Part shown: piece after piece, positions 4,301 through 13,300 of the stretch
How the letters are laid out: every line of letters begins with the position of its first letter
How positions within the stretch are numbered: the first letter of the stretch is position 1
Origin: Saccoglossus kowalevskii
Lineage: Eukaryota > Hemichordata > Enteropneusta > Harrimaniidae
Length of the DNA: 23,965 nucleotides
Reading direction: 5' to 3'
Assembly: GCF_000003605.2 (NCBI RefSeq)
Contig: NW_003126916.1
Span: 5,361-29,325, forward strand
Program-made: the position numbers and the translations under genes
The notes under the pieces: model-generated
Told to the model about the DNA's origin: nothing
Databases searched by the model: none
The model's input: only the letters and a program-made list of their open reading frames with translations

Positions 4301-7300
4301 AGGGCATATATGGCCCAGTTTTAGGTACACCACCTGGGTTCCCACAGGAGCCAATCAGAATGTGGTCTTGCTAGCAGCTGTCTCACGATGACATGCGGGC
4401 ACTCACGTAAGCAAGTCAGTGGATCGTAAACATCCTTCGTTATGTAAATCACAAGCACACCTGGTAGATTCCAATCATCCTTCCAGAGTTGAAAAACAAG
4501 TATGACAGTTATCACACGACAATACACACCGTTTCTTCCCATGGTTCCATGCACACTTCTATTTGCAGGGTTTTAGGTAATATTAAAAAAACATAGAATA
4601 AAGGCATATTCTATACGTCACGATTCAGGCATAAAATATGTTGTTTCAGTAATCCAATAAGATAACCTCAAATACTAATAGCATGGCCTATAGTAGTAGG
4701 GTTATTGCATTTTCGTAATCTGTTTCTAACCTCATTAACATATATTTTAACTTATAATCATAATGAGGGTCGGCAAGGGTTTTTTCGTCAGTTGTAATCT
4801 GTTGTTTTTATTTTCTTAATAATGTAATTTAAATAAACAAAAAAACGTAAATTCGTAGATAAGGTTTAAAATGTAATCAACTATATTATTCGTCCGTAAT
4901 TTGTACAAAGATCTTATTTTTTGTAAGCGTATAAAGCATTTTCCACATTAAATGTCGCAATTCGCACGCAATTTCCATTTTTGATTCTTAAACACAAATT
5001 ATCAAATATATTATAAAAATGTTAAATGTAATTAGGAATTTCCTTATCTGTAAAGTATAAAAACCTATCTTTTACTGTCAATGAAACTTTCATTTTATTT
5101 CCTGTAAAAACGGTAAAATGCTTTTATTATTTCCTGTAACCTGTACCAGCTACCCCCTTCCCCGTTCCATAATGATGTAAGAGTTAAAAGTCCGACCTTT
5201 CACGAGGTTGGAACGTGTGCATTCCCAGTGACGAACATTTTTTTCTAGACAAAAATGATAAAACTTTTTACAGGGGACAAATTAAGATATTTTTATGTCA
5301 GCTGTATATAGATATGATACGAGGATAAATTGTGTTTTCCACAGAATTAGAAATGGTCTCACATAGACCACGTGACTATCATACACAATGGAGGTTTAGC
5401 GATAGAGATATGGATACAGTGAAGACGACTCGCTCTAATATGATTGAAATGCAATTACCAACCTACAGTAATACTTCAAATGGTAAGTTCACAATCAATA
5501 GCAATACAGGAATAATATAAATCTTTTGTAGCGTGTTTGTAATATGCTAATTTTGCACTGCTGGAGAATATAAACTTATCTCAAGGACAAATGTAATTGG
5601 ATAGGTCATACTGATCAGCAATACTAAGCTTCATATGTATGTGGATATCTGTGATGTGCTTATTCTTTCTATTCACTGTGTGTCTGTGTTAATTACAGTA
5701 TTTTTCCCGTCACTATTTCGGTGACGATTAGTGTGGCATACAAGGGCACGCGGCTGCTTACATTCGTGTATGTATATGATTATAAAATGCCTATTGTTAC
5801 ATTCATCACATTTCTACCTTACTTGATCACTATAATGGGTATATTGTTATAAACTTTTCAAATTTGAATATTGTTCTCTTCTTCGCACAATTATAGTATC
5901 TATGGTAACGACTGGTTTACTTTATAAAGCTATTGACGGTGCACCATTGGACGAGTGCATTGCTAGTGACATCATATCGGTCACATTGATATGTGACAAT
6001 GAGATTCATAGTGTACCCATTGAGTTTTCTATGACCTATTATGTAAGTATCAATGCACATATTTGATGTATCATGTAAGTATCAATACGCATCTTTGATG
6101 TATCATGTAAGTATCAATACACATCTTTGATGTATCATGTAAGTATAAATACACATCTTTGATGTATCATGTGAGTATCAATACACATCTATAAGGTATT
6201 ATGTAAGTATCAATACACATCTTTGTTGTATCTTGTAAGTATCAATACTCATCTTTGATGTATCATGTAAGTATCAATACACATCTTTGATGTATCATGT
6301 AAGTATCAATACACATCTTCGATGTATCATGTAAGTATCAATACACATCTATAAGGTATTATGTAATTATCAATACACATCTTTGATGTATCATGTAAGT
6401 ATCAATACGCATCTTTGATGTATCATGTAAGTATCAATACACATCTTTGATGTATCATGTAAGTATCAATACACATCTTTGATGTATCATGTAAGTATCA
6501 ATACACATCTTTGATGTATCATGTAAGTATCAATACACATCTTTGATGTATCATGTAAGTATCAATACACATCTTTGATGTATCATGTAAGTATCAATAC
6601 GCATCTTTGATGTATCATGTAAGTACCAATACGCATCTTTGATGTATCATGTAAGTATCAGTACACATCTATAAGGTATTATGTAAGTATCAATACACAT
6701 CTATAAGGTATTATGTAAGTATCAATACGCATCTATAAGGTATTATGTAAGTATCAATACGCATCTATAAGGTATTATGTAAGTATGTACGAGTGCATAA
6801 TATACATGTGCTCTATAATTATTAAACAATATTTTACACGGAATACAAACAATGTATGACTTTATTTGTGAACATGTAGAATTAAAGAGATATTTATTCG
6901 TATTCTTAACACTGACATTAATGTTTCCATCTGGCGCAGCTTGAGTGTGGAAGTGTTGTCATAAAATTGGTTTGAAATTCTCTGTATAATTTTAGAATAT
7001 TAATCACAACTTTCGGTCAAATACTTATGTACCAATAATTAAGTTTGTGCCATTTGTGTAAGAATATATCAATACAGTGAAAGTAATGGCTGTGATTTTT
7101 ATGAATGTTTACTTCAAAAACGACTCCTGGACGATACAGTCATATCACGTTTTCCGAATCACGGGAATAAATTATGCTATGTACTTTGTAGGTTGACGGC
7201 GAGGTGTTACCGGAACAAGATATTTGTGCTTTTCTAAATTTTGAAAATACGTGAGTACCAATAGATTGCATGCAACTGACTGGTTTGTCTGATTCTTATT

Positions 7301-10300
7301 TAAAATACTGGTTTTTAAAACATTTTTCTTCGTGTTAGTTCTTTCCATTATTTCAAATTGTTCAAATTGATTTGTTTGGGTTTCCATATTTTGAAATAAT
7401 TAGTTTATTATCAATACAGTTTCTTATGATATAATGAATTAATCACTTTCAGATATTCGAACACCCTTTTTCTTATTTCACATATTGTCAATAATTAAAC
7501 TTTAAAATTATCCTAACGCATCTAGAAAATCAACGCCATTTACACATCTGTATTCTTCTCAATGTATGTTTTCAAATGTTGACGTAAAATATCTTCTTTT
7601 TTTCAAAAATCAGTCGACACCGGAATCTGTTGCTCCGTGCCGAACCATTCATGGTCCGAACCGGAATCTGTTGCTTCGTGTCGACCCATTCATGGTCTGT
7701 ACCTGAATCTGTTGCTCCGTGTCGACCCATTCATGGTTCGTATCGGAATCTGTTGATCTCTGTCGACCCATTTATGGTTCGTATCGGAATCTGTTACTCC
7801 GTGTCGACCCATTTATGGTTCGTACCGAAATCTGTTGCTCCGTGTCGACCCATTTATGGTTCGTATCGGAATCTGTTACTCTGTGTCGACCCATTTATGG
7901 TTCGTACCGGAATCTGTTGGTCCGTGTCGACCCATTTATGGTTCGTATCGGAATCTGTTACTCCGTGTCGACCCATTTATGGTTCGTACCGAAATCTGTT
8001 GCTCCGTGTCGACCCATTTATGGTTCGTATCGGAATCTGTTACTCTGTGTCGACCCATTTATGGTTCGTACCGGAATCTGTTGGTCCGTGTCGACCCATT
8101 TATGGTTCGTACCGGAATCTGTTGCTCCGTGTCGACCCATTTATGGTTCGTACCGGAATCTGTTGCTCCGTGTCGACCCATTTATGGTTCGTATCGGAAT
8201 CTGTTGCTCCGTGTCGACCCATTTATGGTTCGTACCGGAATCTGTTGCTCCGTGTCGACCCATTTATGGTTCGTACCGGAATCTGTTGCTCCGTGTCGAC
8301 CCATTTATGGTTCGTACCGGAATCTGTTGCTCCGTGTCGACCCATTTATGGTTCGTACCGGAATCTGTTGCTCCGTATCGACCCATTTATGGTTCGTACC
8401 GGAATCTGTTGCTCCGTGTCGACCCATTTATGGTTTGTATCGGAATCTGTTGCTCCGTGTCGACAAGACAAGATTTATATGTTGAAACAGCTTCTAGTTA
8501 AACGCCTTCAAGTTGACTATCATTTTGTTTGAATTGTAATATTTTTATCAAAACACACAGTAAACATTCTAGTGTAATTTCATTTGCAATGTTTTAACTT
8601 GTTTTTTTCATGATGCATCACATTCAGCTCAGTTTATGTGCATTCAGTTAACTATTCTGATTCCTCTGTCAGATACGAGGGAGAATGGCAGACTACAGGA
8701 TGTGAACAGATCAGTCATGTTGAGTCACGTGTCAAATGTCAGTGTAACCATACAACAAACTTTGCGCTATTACTACAAGTTGTGCCATTCCAGGTGAGTT
8801 CATACATACATGGTGAGTGACATGTTAAATCATTTGAACTTAATCACGTGGGGGGGGGGAGTTTATACATATGCATCAGGGTTGAATTAGGCAGAATTCC
8901 TATTAGATTTATTAGACCTAAATCAGGTGGGAGCTTATTGGCCAATTGTCCTACTATACAAAAGGAGTTACGTAACACACGTACACTGTGACAGCACACG
9001 ATCCGTAATAGGACTGCAAAAAACACCTAAAACAGATTTGCAATATTATTTCGTTAAAGTACTAAAACTCTGACGTAACGGTAGTTAACGGCCTGTTCAA
9101 GGTTGAGGTTCTAGTAAACGTTCTCGACGCTGCGGGCGTACTCTATCAGTTAAACATGTTGAGGGCCATACTATACAGTTATCCCACTGTACAACAATAG
9201 TGTAACACGACAATATATTTATGTTTGTAACTGATATACTGATAAATATTCTGGTCACTATTTTCCAGATTGGCGATACACATGCACGGATATTGCGTTT
9301 AATATCTGAAATTGGAGGATCTGTATCACTGATTGTTTTGTTTATTGCGTTCGTGTTGCTTTTAAATGTCAGGTATGTGTAGAATTAGCATAATTGATTG
9401 GTAAGAGGTATTTTCATAGTCCACCTATAAATAAAAATATTCCAAATTAGAAAATATACATTTTTGAACTACAAACTTAAAAATGAATTTACAATGCCAT
9501 TATTCAACAACGTTTGAAAATTAAAATTGTTAGCGCTTTGGTATCAGTTAGCCCGACGAGGTCGCGTGTGTTGCGCCATATGCGGTGCTCCAACCCAGCA
9601 CACGCCTGGCAGAACGATGTAGTTTTTCACTTCCCCCGACGATTTTTTGTCGGTACTAATCAAATTGCAGGAACATCAGATAGTGACAGCCATCAAAGGC
9701 ATGAACTTTGCGAATTCGCAGTATTGATCTTGCCGACGAGACACTAATCTGCCAGGCGTTAGCGAAGTCTGATGCAGTTCGGCCGGCGAGGGCGCTACTA
9801 CGCCTACATGTCAGGCGATGGTATCAGTAAGACTATGAAAATAAATGGCCGACATAATTCTGCCCGCTAATTATCATATCGGATCTAAAGTGGAAGACAA
9901 CATTACAGTAGAGTTATCTTAGACAGTTATGCAGTGTCCGTTCCGTATAGATTGAATATGCATTATTGGCGTATCATAAAAAATAAAGCTACTTACCACT
10001 GTTTTATTGAATTATGTTTTGTTTACAGGACATTATTAAAGTCGGATAGAATGGTCATACATCGGCACTTAATGGTGGCATTGTTTATAGCACAGTTTAT
10101 AATATTACTGTCCGACACGTTATCATATTCAAAGGTAACGCTAAATCAACCTGAATGATTCTCTAACGATGGTCATATAAGAGGTCAGAAAGTATGAATC
10201 CTCCCCGGCCTCCCACTCCCTATATTTAGGGGGGGCCTATGCGTGTTCCCCCATTTTTTTTGACCCCCCCCCCTATCTAGGTAAAAGAAGAAAATTTAAC

Positions 10301-13300
10301 GGGCTTTTCCGATGAATTTCACCCCTATCTAGGGAACTTTTCAGTCTAGAACTCCTTTTAAACCCCCCTTTTTTGTATATCTCGGGAAGTGTTTTGAAAT
10401 ACACCCCCTATTTTGAGAATCTCGGGAAAACAAGCAAAAAATACCCCCTTTTCTACGATTTTCTCGGGAGAATGTTCCCGAGACAGATCGTCAAAAAGTA
10501 CCCTCTTTCCCGAGAAAATGGGAACGCGCATGCGAGGTATGTAATGGCAATCTTGAGCTTCAACCTGAGCTTGCTCAGAGTCAACCTGAGCTCCACCCTG
10601 AGCTTCAACTTGAACTTCAACCTGAGCTTCAACCTGAGTTTCAACTTGAGCTCCACCCTGAGCTTCCTCAGAGTCAACCTGAGCTCCACCCAACTTGAGC
10701 TTGGGAAATTATTTAATATACTGATTAGTTTTTCATGCAAATTTATCTTAATTTATCATTTGAATAAAATATCTTTTTTGTCCAATACGTTTAGGATAGT
10801 ATATCTAGTTTGGGTGAAAATCTATACAAATTAATACTGCATATTAATTTGGTAGATTTAATTTGGNNNNNNNNNNNNNNNNNNNNNNNNNNNNNNNNNN
10901 NNNNNNNNNNNNNNNNGGAAGCTCAGGTTGAAGCTCAAGTTGAAGCTCAGGTTGAAGCTCAGGGTGGAGCTCAGGTTGACTCTGAGCAAGCTCAGGTTGA
11001 AGCTCAAGATTGCCATCACATACCTGCGCATGCGGTCCCCTATGGATCTGAGTGGGGGGGGGGGCGTGGAATCCTCTGAGAATCTATATAGGAGAACGAC
11101 GCCCAATAAACTAGGGAAGCACTGTTTGATGTTGGATTAAGATAGCTTTGTTACTGGGTTGTAGATAGTAATCAGACGTGGGGGGATATTTTCGTTTATA
11201 TCAATTGCAATATTTTTTTGTTCGTACAACTTACGTAAATTGAAAAAATAAATTCCGTAATTCTGTAATCACTGGCTAGACGTACAACGCAACGTAATCA
11301 ATCAAATAGTTTTGTCGTACACTGTAAAAATGTGTCATTTTTCTCGGTACGCACAAGAATTTACATCCAAATAAAAAAAGTCGTAAAGAATAATCCAGGG
11401 AAATTACATTTTCGAAACGATTCACTGCAAAATTCAATGTTCACTGTAAACTGTAAAAACGTCTTTTTTTCCTTGTAAATTGTAAAATGCCATTTTTATT
11501 TCCCGTTAAACTGTACAAGCTACCCCCCCTTGCCCCCTCAAATCACTGTACTTATATGACAAAGTTAGTTATACTTTACTAGTAACAAGCTTTGTGTTAT
11601 TCGTGTTCTGCCTTCAGGAAACATTATCACCAGTAGAGGAATGATCAACTGCTTAAATGTCTGTCTTTCTTGTTTGGCTTCAGTCTGCACGAAAACATAC
11701 AGTTGCAGGAAATGTTAATAAGTCTGACTTTAGCCACTGTTTTAACCTTCAATTATGCACTGCATTAAATGTCTTAATGTTTAAAAAGTATATCCGGGTT
11801 ATATTAAGTATAAATTTGTTCTTATTTAGTTTTATAAATTTTATAATAATTAACATTTATTTAAACTCGCCCTTTGCTGGATTTTAAAAACACTTGGAAC
11901 ATTTGCAAACTAGGGCTATCAACTTTTATTATTTTTTTTTCTTCATATTAGCTAACTGCTCTGTAACTGTTTGGTAGACGGGTAGCTTGGAGCGATGTAA
12001 AAACCTGGTTTGGTTTGGGTTCATATCCATGATATTAACCACTGTGCTGATGCTGTTTACTATTTGATTTTAAAAACTATACAAATAACTATGTTTTCAT
12101 TTTGTAAAATTCGGACGTAGCTGTATAAAAAATTCCAACGAAATTTAGAACAGCTAAAATGCCAGACGATCATGGCAAACTTCCACTGATCATTTAGCAG
12201 TCTATGCACGCAAGACTATTGCGAATTTCCAATGAAATTTGGATCTTTTTGAGACCAGACTTTTCACAGTTCACGAACAATTAAATTGCTTGCTTGGATG
12301 ACTGTTAATTTCTTTGCGTGTCAATTATTTCATTACTGAACACTTTATTCATCAAGTGGATTAAGTTGTACTAGTCTGTTACATGCAAGCATTATTTGTA
12401 TTTTTAGATTGGATGTAAGTTATCGGCAGTTGCTCAACATTATGCCTGGACAGCTGTGTTTATTTGGATGCTGATAGAGGGCGTTCAGCTGTATCGCCAA
12501 GTTGTAATGGTGTATGGAAGCGAAAACAGTTGGATGAAGTACTACTACTTGGCAGGTTGGGGTAAGTCGTCAGGAAATATAACATAACATAATAATGATA
12601 TTATTATACCGGTAAATATAATAAATCGTTACTAGAAATTTGCATAGTTAGCTGTTTAACTACCACTGGTGATTCGTTTTGTGAATGTTCACCTGTCTCA
12701 TCGGGTGTTCAACAGAGTGGACTGTGAGAACCCCTGCTTTTATTCTATACACCAATGACATCACTGCTGAGTTACAATCAAATATACTCCTGTTCGCGGA
12801 TGATAGGAAGGTTTACTGCATTATTGCCACTATAGATCTTATCCTACAAAATGGCTTAAAAAGATTTGTATGTGATCACATGGCTGAGAACTTAAAGCCA
12901 GTAAAGTGTAAGCATTTTCACTTTGAACTTTGAAAGTTAAAAAAGTCATCAGTCATAGTTATAAGGTGAACGGGGTCAAAATAAAATTACGTCCTTCAAT
13001 CGTATGATTGGGTTATAAAATGAAACAAAAAAGATACATTGAAGTTGCTAGCAAGTTGGAATAATAAATTGAAATAGTACAGGTCAAAGGTCAAACACAT
13101 AGTGTGAGGATTGACAGGATGCTGTACAATCTCTATATAAACATGCTAGATGGAATATTGAATTACCATACCAAGGTATGTGTAAAACGTCTACCCATAC
13201 TTGAAGCTCGAAGAAAATACTTTGATATGGTCTTTCTTTCTAAGTGTGTCATGAGCCGATTCAGCTGTTGTAAATGTTCGTCTTTTTTGGTTCCTGTTCT

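Follow-up and report, generated by a model that had tools for sequence, protein, structure and literature searches.

What is new here is that tandem arrays headed by an exon's own 5' splice site recur within one genome, that of the hemichordate Saccoglossus kowalevskii: 4 of the 14 GTAAGTAT-bearing arrays with a readable start have this configuration, in unrelated genes. One of the four lies in an adhesion GPCR gene within a stretch of 23,965 nucleotides of contig NW_003126916.1 (positions 5,361 to 29,325, forward strand), which is called the window below and provides all coordinates given without a contig name. We consider this array to be probably a minisatellite that was born at an exon–intron junction, that is largely neutral and that is tolerated since the exon-adjacent donor wins. 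Most likely it arose as a by-product of the genome's richness in repeats and does not act as a switch.

The plus strand of the window carries seven adhesion GPCR exons, all of which join as one open frame. Exon A (5345-5482), likely part of the GAIN region and in the same frame as exon B, was placed by open frame and splice consensus (donor ATG|GTAAGT); by itself it gave no credible domain match in Pfam. Exon B (5897-6042), which is the source of the donor, belongs to the GAIN domain, ends in ...SVPIEFSMTYY and is supported by the in-frame chain, the paralog exon and an alignment to ADGRL3. It is followed by exon C (7192-7250; 59 nt, VDGEVLPEQDICAFLNFENT), based on splice consensus, frame and a paralog exon C of the same length, and by exon D (8673-8793), which bears the GPS motif (Pfam GPS 7.8e-12; the paralog exon is likewise 121 nt). 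Exon E (9269-9372) encodes TM1 according to the in-frame chain and PDB alignments, exon F (10029-10134) encodes TM2 (7tm_2 2.2e-4, 21.0 bits versus a cut-off of 20.6, and the chain), and exon G (12408-12561, donor at 12562) encodes TM3 (7tm_2 3e-14, and the chain). A GAIN/GPS region followed by a secretin-family 7TM domain identifies the product as an adhesion GPCR. Exons for TM4-7 were not located in the window by Pfam in ten plus-strand frames or by inspection of the ORF lists by eye, and sizeable gaps interrupt the contig (13,756 N in 50 kb), so that the 3' half of the gene may not be intact. Three other observations were made along this contig. Positions 2-490 of the window hold an open frame that lacks a Pfam match and resembles the terminal part of a LINE-type reverse transcriptase; at 10554-11006, imperfect repeats of 12 bp, first TGAGCTTCAACC and later GAAGCTCAGGTT, form inverted blocks that flank an N run at about 10867-10917; and farther downstream, a 202-codon open frame (L023:1744-2352) resembles a dual-specificity phosphatase.

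The authentic 5' splice site of exon B is TAT|GTAAGT at 6043-6048 on the plus strand, which is also the head of the first repeat unit. The best PDB matches of the spliced protein were ADGRD1 and ADGRL3. The alignment to ADGRD1 begins within exon C; that to ADGRL3 starts at the end of exon B, crosses the junction into exon C and extends beyond it, with single-residue gaps, and thus the junction 6042/7192 is correctly placed. Considering also the in-frame exon chain, the frame test of this donor and the phase-0 junction of the paralog, 6043 is the authentic donor.

The array itself was reported by TRF as a single array at 6037-6786 with a 32-bp period, 23.4 copies, 93% matches and 0% indels. Read in register, it consists of 23 full 32-bp units (6043-6778, plus strand; consensus GTAAGTATCAATACACATCTTTGATGTATCAT), each headed by a donor-like site that is broken in unit 11, and a partial unit 24 of 8 bases (GTAAGTAT, 6779-6786), where the array ends and unique sequence begins. 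The initial annotation, made from the letters of this DNA, had described 23 repeats without indels, about 24 copies of the donor, a unit starting exactly at the authentic GAIN-exon donor at 6043 and a GTAAGT core altered in units 5 and 11 alone, all of which agree with our reading. It had placed the array correctly, although the bounds of 6036 and 6784 that it gave are one or two bases off. The 24 donor-like sites comprise 22 GTAAGT, one GTGAGT (unit 5, still donor-like) and one GTAATT (unit 11, broken). Two unit types are intermixed, the commoner ending in TTTGATGTATCAT and the other, represented by units 5, 10 and 20-23, in TATAAGGTATTAT. Units 13-17, five in succession, are all identical, which points to a recent expansion of the array.

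Such a series of spaced donor-like sites is no chance product: when the window was simulated 200 times with a Markov-1 model, no more than two GTRAGT words ever followed one another at a spacing of 32. By its build of head-to-tail units of tens of bases, the array is a minisatellite, present as a single locus copy in the one assembly. When the consensus unit was searched with up to 3 mismatches in the 572-Mb assembly, every one of the 17 matches lay inside the window array, and the 1.2-kb array region matched only itself in its own genome, in a search that ignores very common words and whose counts are lower bounds. A dispersed repeat family or transposon was therefore rejected, the unit being found at the window locus alone. 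A known structured RNA was rejected as well (no Rfam matches at the gathering threshold), as was a tRNA. Finally, a simple higher-order repeat was rejected, since weak similarity appeared only at lag-1 and lag-5 (shuffle P 0.012 and 0.038; 12 lags tested).

Searching with the spliced protein revealed a close paralog elsewhere in this genome (contig C3984, L043). Its exons C and D, of 59 and 121 nt, are identical in length to those of the window, and its exon B ends in phase 0 at the homologous residue, as in the window. The introns are quite different: they measure 95 and 121 nt in the paralog versus 1149 and 1422 nt in the window, and the homologous 95-nt intron is without an array. Hence an intron at the B/C position needs no array. 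Minisatellites enlarge both introns of the window, and one of the two minisatellites contains donor words. The second minisatellite, unrelated to the 32-bp array, lies in the next intron on the plus strand (7619-8464; 41 bp x 20.6, 93% matches by TRF), and no GTAAGT or GTGAGT occurs on its sense strand; all three of its sense frames are open, for 242-314 codons. Compared with the head of the paralog intron, 9 of 10 bases match from unit 24 (6779) and 7 of 10 from unit 1. A last donor that resembles the old intron head would be expected, as far as ten bases can tell, if the array arose through duplication at the border of the exon and the old intron. The similarity of the two genes is patchy: exon D with its flanks (window 8669-8846) shares 93% identity with the paralog over 182 aligned bases, and exon B about 51% protein identity, a pattern that suggests possible gene conversion between the two receptor genes.

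The distribution of comparable arrays was obtained from two genome scans. Three GTAAGTAT words at spacings of 22-52 gave arrays on at least 10 contigs among the matches listed, and the variant pattern GTAAGTATH x3, listed in full, gave 61 matches on 13 contigs. The union of the two scans covered at least 17 contigs, 14 of which had a readable array start after exclusion of C1982, C3225 (N upstream) and C1727 (start beyond 4.7 kb, array throughout). The first unit contained a supported donor in four arrays, those of C1964 (the window), C1603, C4504 and C762, and their hosts are unrelated genes: the receptor, a cullin-domain gene, lanosterol synthase and an ectodomain gene. Outside the window, the donors lie at C1603:24782, C4504:224780 and C762:198237. 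In two of the four, the cullin-domain gene and lanosterol synthase, the unit also includes the exon tail. The cullin-domain gene (C1603:24749-25250, L050; Pfam PF00888 8.7e-14, with a cullin-3 alignment crossing the junction), which looks like CACUL1, has a 46-bp unit in 11 copies, in which 33 nt from the exon tail are followed by 13 nt from the intron head, and its donors 2-11 all reach one stop. Its second joined exon (C1603:23514-23616) has an apparent GC donor, CAG|GCATGT, judged by frame and joined protein. In lanosterol synthase (C4504 from 224756, L063; exon peptide versus 1w6j 3.4e-8, aligned to within 3 codons of the donor), two of the three further donors seen come with a repeat of the 24 nt of exon tail, and a stop in frame follows the first donor at once. 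The ectodomain gene on C762 has 2.9 copies of 45 bp with stops from donors 2 and 3, and its spliced product can be aligned across the junction to a further repeat of that gene (3e-8).

Among the other ten arrays, those of C2524, C2743 and C2964 (L057, L058 and L059) are candidates, for which inspection by eye gave no more than an open frame and an acceptor-like site; at C2524, no acceptor was found at the script threshold and the PDB search gave no credible match, and L059 resembles the final part of a von Willebrand C domain. No exon evidence was found at the seven arrays of C172, C253, C413, C1296, C1729, C3293 and C3390. Two of the excluded arrays are very long. That of C1982 (19-2860, probably longer) is built of 42-44-bp units with GTAAGTAT in each and accounts for most of the matches listed, and that of C1727 is a 47-bp array of about 100 copies that fills the entire 4.7 kb at 7901-12600 (L051, L064).

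Minisatellites are common in this genome. Nineteen 5-kb stretches sampled from four contigs, with 48,851 readable bases in total, contained six arrays with a period of at least 25 and at least 4 copies, three of them within one stretch, and none of the six had GTRAGT in its consensus on either strand. The density is about 1 array per 8 kb (Poisson limits of one in 3.7 kb and one in 22 kb, assuming independence). About 0.4% of donors would then have an array edge within 16 bp, or hundreds genome-wide if 50,000-200,000 donors are assumed. Thus random birth suffices for such cases, at least when donors of every kind are counted. If arrays ignored donors, the expected share of flush arrays would be about 0.7% (assuming 200,000 donors and 40-base units) versus the 4 of 14 found. 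This suggests that the donor-bearing arrays originate at junctions, with an expectation that rests on the assumed donor count and not on the share of donors that read GTAAGTAT. Since random birth also gives donor-flush arrays, the 4 of 14 do not demonstrate a preference for junctions as birthplaces. Genome-wide enrichment of donor words was not shown in either scan: GTAAGTAT x3 gave 1199 matches versus 760 for the reversed pattern and GTAAGTATH x3, the cleaner scan, gave 61 versus 234 for its control, that is, fewer than the reversed pattern, and with matches this clustered the ratios are no test. The reverse-strand matches listed for GTAAGTAT x3 belong mostly to the one huge array of C1982. 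The unit sequences are unrelated among arrays, and so the arrays represent independent events.

We propose that the array began as a short segment holding the 5' splice site of the exon, which was copied in tandem and multiplied in a minisatellite-rich genome, presumably by slippage or unequal exchange. The outcome would be 23 further donor-like sites, one of them broken, behind the real donor and within the intron. The exon-adjacent donor would mostly be used, as it lies at the normal exon length from the acceptor (146 nt, versus 178-882 nt for the later donors), and the later donors would be used only as a leak that is cleared by nonsense-mediated decay. The unit may derive partly from the exon tail as well, as the comparison suggests: it matches 12 of the last 15 bases of the exon, a value equalled by none of 34 TATTAT-ending sites of the window, and 13 of the last 24, a value equalled by 5 of the 34 (P = 0.15).

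What the later donors would do to the receptor can be read from the frame. It stays open for 1 of the 24 donors (6043), and the remaining 23 share a first stop, the in-frame TGA at 6064-6066 on the plus strand, as found by testing each donor in the exon chain. The earlier prediction that later donors pull in this TGA and truncate the receptor was thus confirmed for 23 of 23. On a human donor matrix, which may not fit the host, 16 of the 24 sites outscore the authentic donor, because they have C and not T at -3. The energies of pairing with U1 are nearly equal (-6.9 to -7.5 kcal/mol), save for unit 11 (-1.4), and 23 of the 24 sites pair over at least 7 contiguous positions with the canonical 5' end of U1, which may not match the U1 of the host. 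A special RNA accessibility of the first donor was rejected, its value of 0.014 being inside the range of the 24 sites (0.003-0.069). Considering that scores, U1 pairing and RNA structure all fail to single out 6043, local sequence does not explain a preference for the first donor. Position is a plausible discriminator, with the chosen donor perhaps being the one at a normal exon length from the upstream acceptor. In human work summarised in PMC5585400, SRSF1 favours the intron-proximal of two competing donors; an intron-proximal donor can win under the influence of SR proteins, and use of the first donor over the others should not be taken for granted.

The common stop, the higher scores of later sites at about equal U1 pairing and the behaviour of SRSF1 all favour an alternative in which the later donors are used appreciably. 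The copy number would then set the share of transcripts stopping at 6064, and the array would tune the output of the receptor or yield a truncated, secreted ectodomain. We consider this unlikely, as the paralog does without an array and the donor core is not visibly preserved. In addition, the configuration recurs in the cullin-domain gene and lanosterol synthase, where a strong loss of full-length product would presumably be costly. The preservation of the core was assessed by comparing each unit with the closer of the two unit types and counting the cells that differ: 2 of 138 were changed in the six positions of the core versus 15 of 598 elsewhere (Fisher P = 0.75; 23 units, small numbers). 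Neither preservation nor removal of donors by selection is visible in the array, 23 units being a weak test, and selection on the donor core was rejected on these small numbers.

The same count bears on the suggestion that many U1 particles are bound without splicing, as a decoy or platform that changes how the intron is defined or represses premature polyadenylation. In favour of it are the 23 sites that pair with U1 and the AATAAA/ATTAAA hexamers at 6821, 6881 and 7166, which lie 3' of the array and within its intron. However, 13 more such hexamers occur across the rest of 5301-12700, so that three in this intron are nothing unusual, the paralog lacks an array, and a decoy whose U1-pairing sites are kept by selection is not what we found, weak as the test of 23 units is. 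We regard a U1 platform as very improbable. The initial annotation had offered the array as a U1 decoy, a tuner of intron definition or a VNTR modulating splicing; with an array-free paralog and a donor core that shows no more conservation than the remainder of the unit, we found no support for these roles. A selected role in splicing is also disfavoured by the abundance of minisatellites in this genome and by the recurrence of donor-flush arrays in unrelated genes.

The human 6-16 minisatellite was reportedly described by Turri, Cuin and Porter in Nucleic Acids Research in 1995 (23:1854) as a source of multiple splice donors. This minisatellite of IFI6 (G1P3, 6-16) is the closest known case, in that its repeats supply multiple splice donors. 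Two downstream repeat units there act as donors and give three mRNA species (PMC4526556). The extra donors of IFI6 are used, whereas in the window array the unit has 32 nt, the frame is broken by a stop and the later donors are putative. One could suppose that, as in IFI6, several repeat donors are used here to make protein isoforms, given the similar anatomy of minisatellite units that are donors with the authentic donor in the first unit. But 32 nt is not a multiple of 3, unlike the 12-nt, frame-keeping unit of IFI6, and the TGA at 6064-6066 ends every extension, leaving no full-length isoform. Full-length protein isoforms of the IFI6 kind are thus refuted for the window array; only truncated products could arise in this way, and we give an IFI6-like role as a whole almost no credence. 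The minisatellite VNTR of TERT intron 6, with a 38-bp unit, is likewise an intronic array of many tandem copies of tens of bases; its account, as far as consulted, makes no mention of donors, whereas in the window the donor itself heads the first unit. Tandem genomic duplication of AGGT segments, which leads to intron gain (PMC3443670), is similar in that splice signals at an exon are multiplied by tandem duplication. It differs in that a new intron arises there from exon sequence, while in the window an existing intron is lengthened and the donor alone is multiplied. No other donor-headed array was found in the open literature, including PMC3045353 and PMC12783039, a search that left subscription literature mostly uncovered. 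Lastly, an assembly artefact, or a copy number mis-stated for a much shorter or longer array, is highly improbable: the assembly is gappy, as the N content of the contig indicates, but the array lies within continuous sequence, has distinct variants among its units and has counterparts elsewhere with different unit sequences.

Beyond the junction-born, largely neutral array of the receptor gene, a broader proposition is possible, though we hold it doubtful: that exon–intron junctions repeatedly seed minisatellites in this genome, and that either splicing is led by position or array copy number sets non-productive splicing. If it were true, receptor and housekeeping genes would bear up to 22 extra intact copies of a donor and splice at the first. 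The spliceosome would then pick 5' splice sites mainly by position, or the non-productive splicing of many genes would be set by copy number.

The choice among equal 5' splice sites has usually been studied by engineered duplications. A natural test of donor choice is offered by true junctions at which as many as 24 donor-like sites are arrayed. Within the array of the cullin-domain gene, the sequence of most copies is near-identical for 33 bases upstream and 13 downstream, so that position, and not local sequence, must mark the productive donor. With several such loci within one genome, positional donor choice becomes testable by ordinary RNA-seq. Gene predictors, for their part, may misplace exon ends where genomes are rich in minisatellites. 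The interest of these arrays rests on their recurrence and on the clean test of positional donor choice that they provide.
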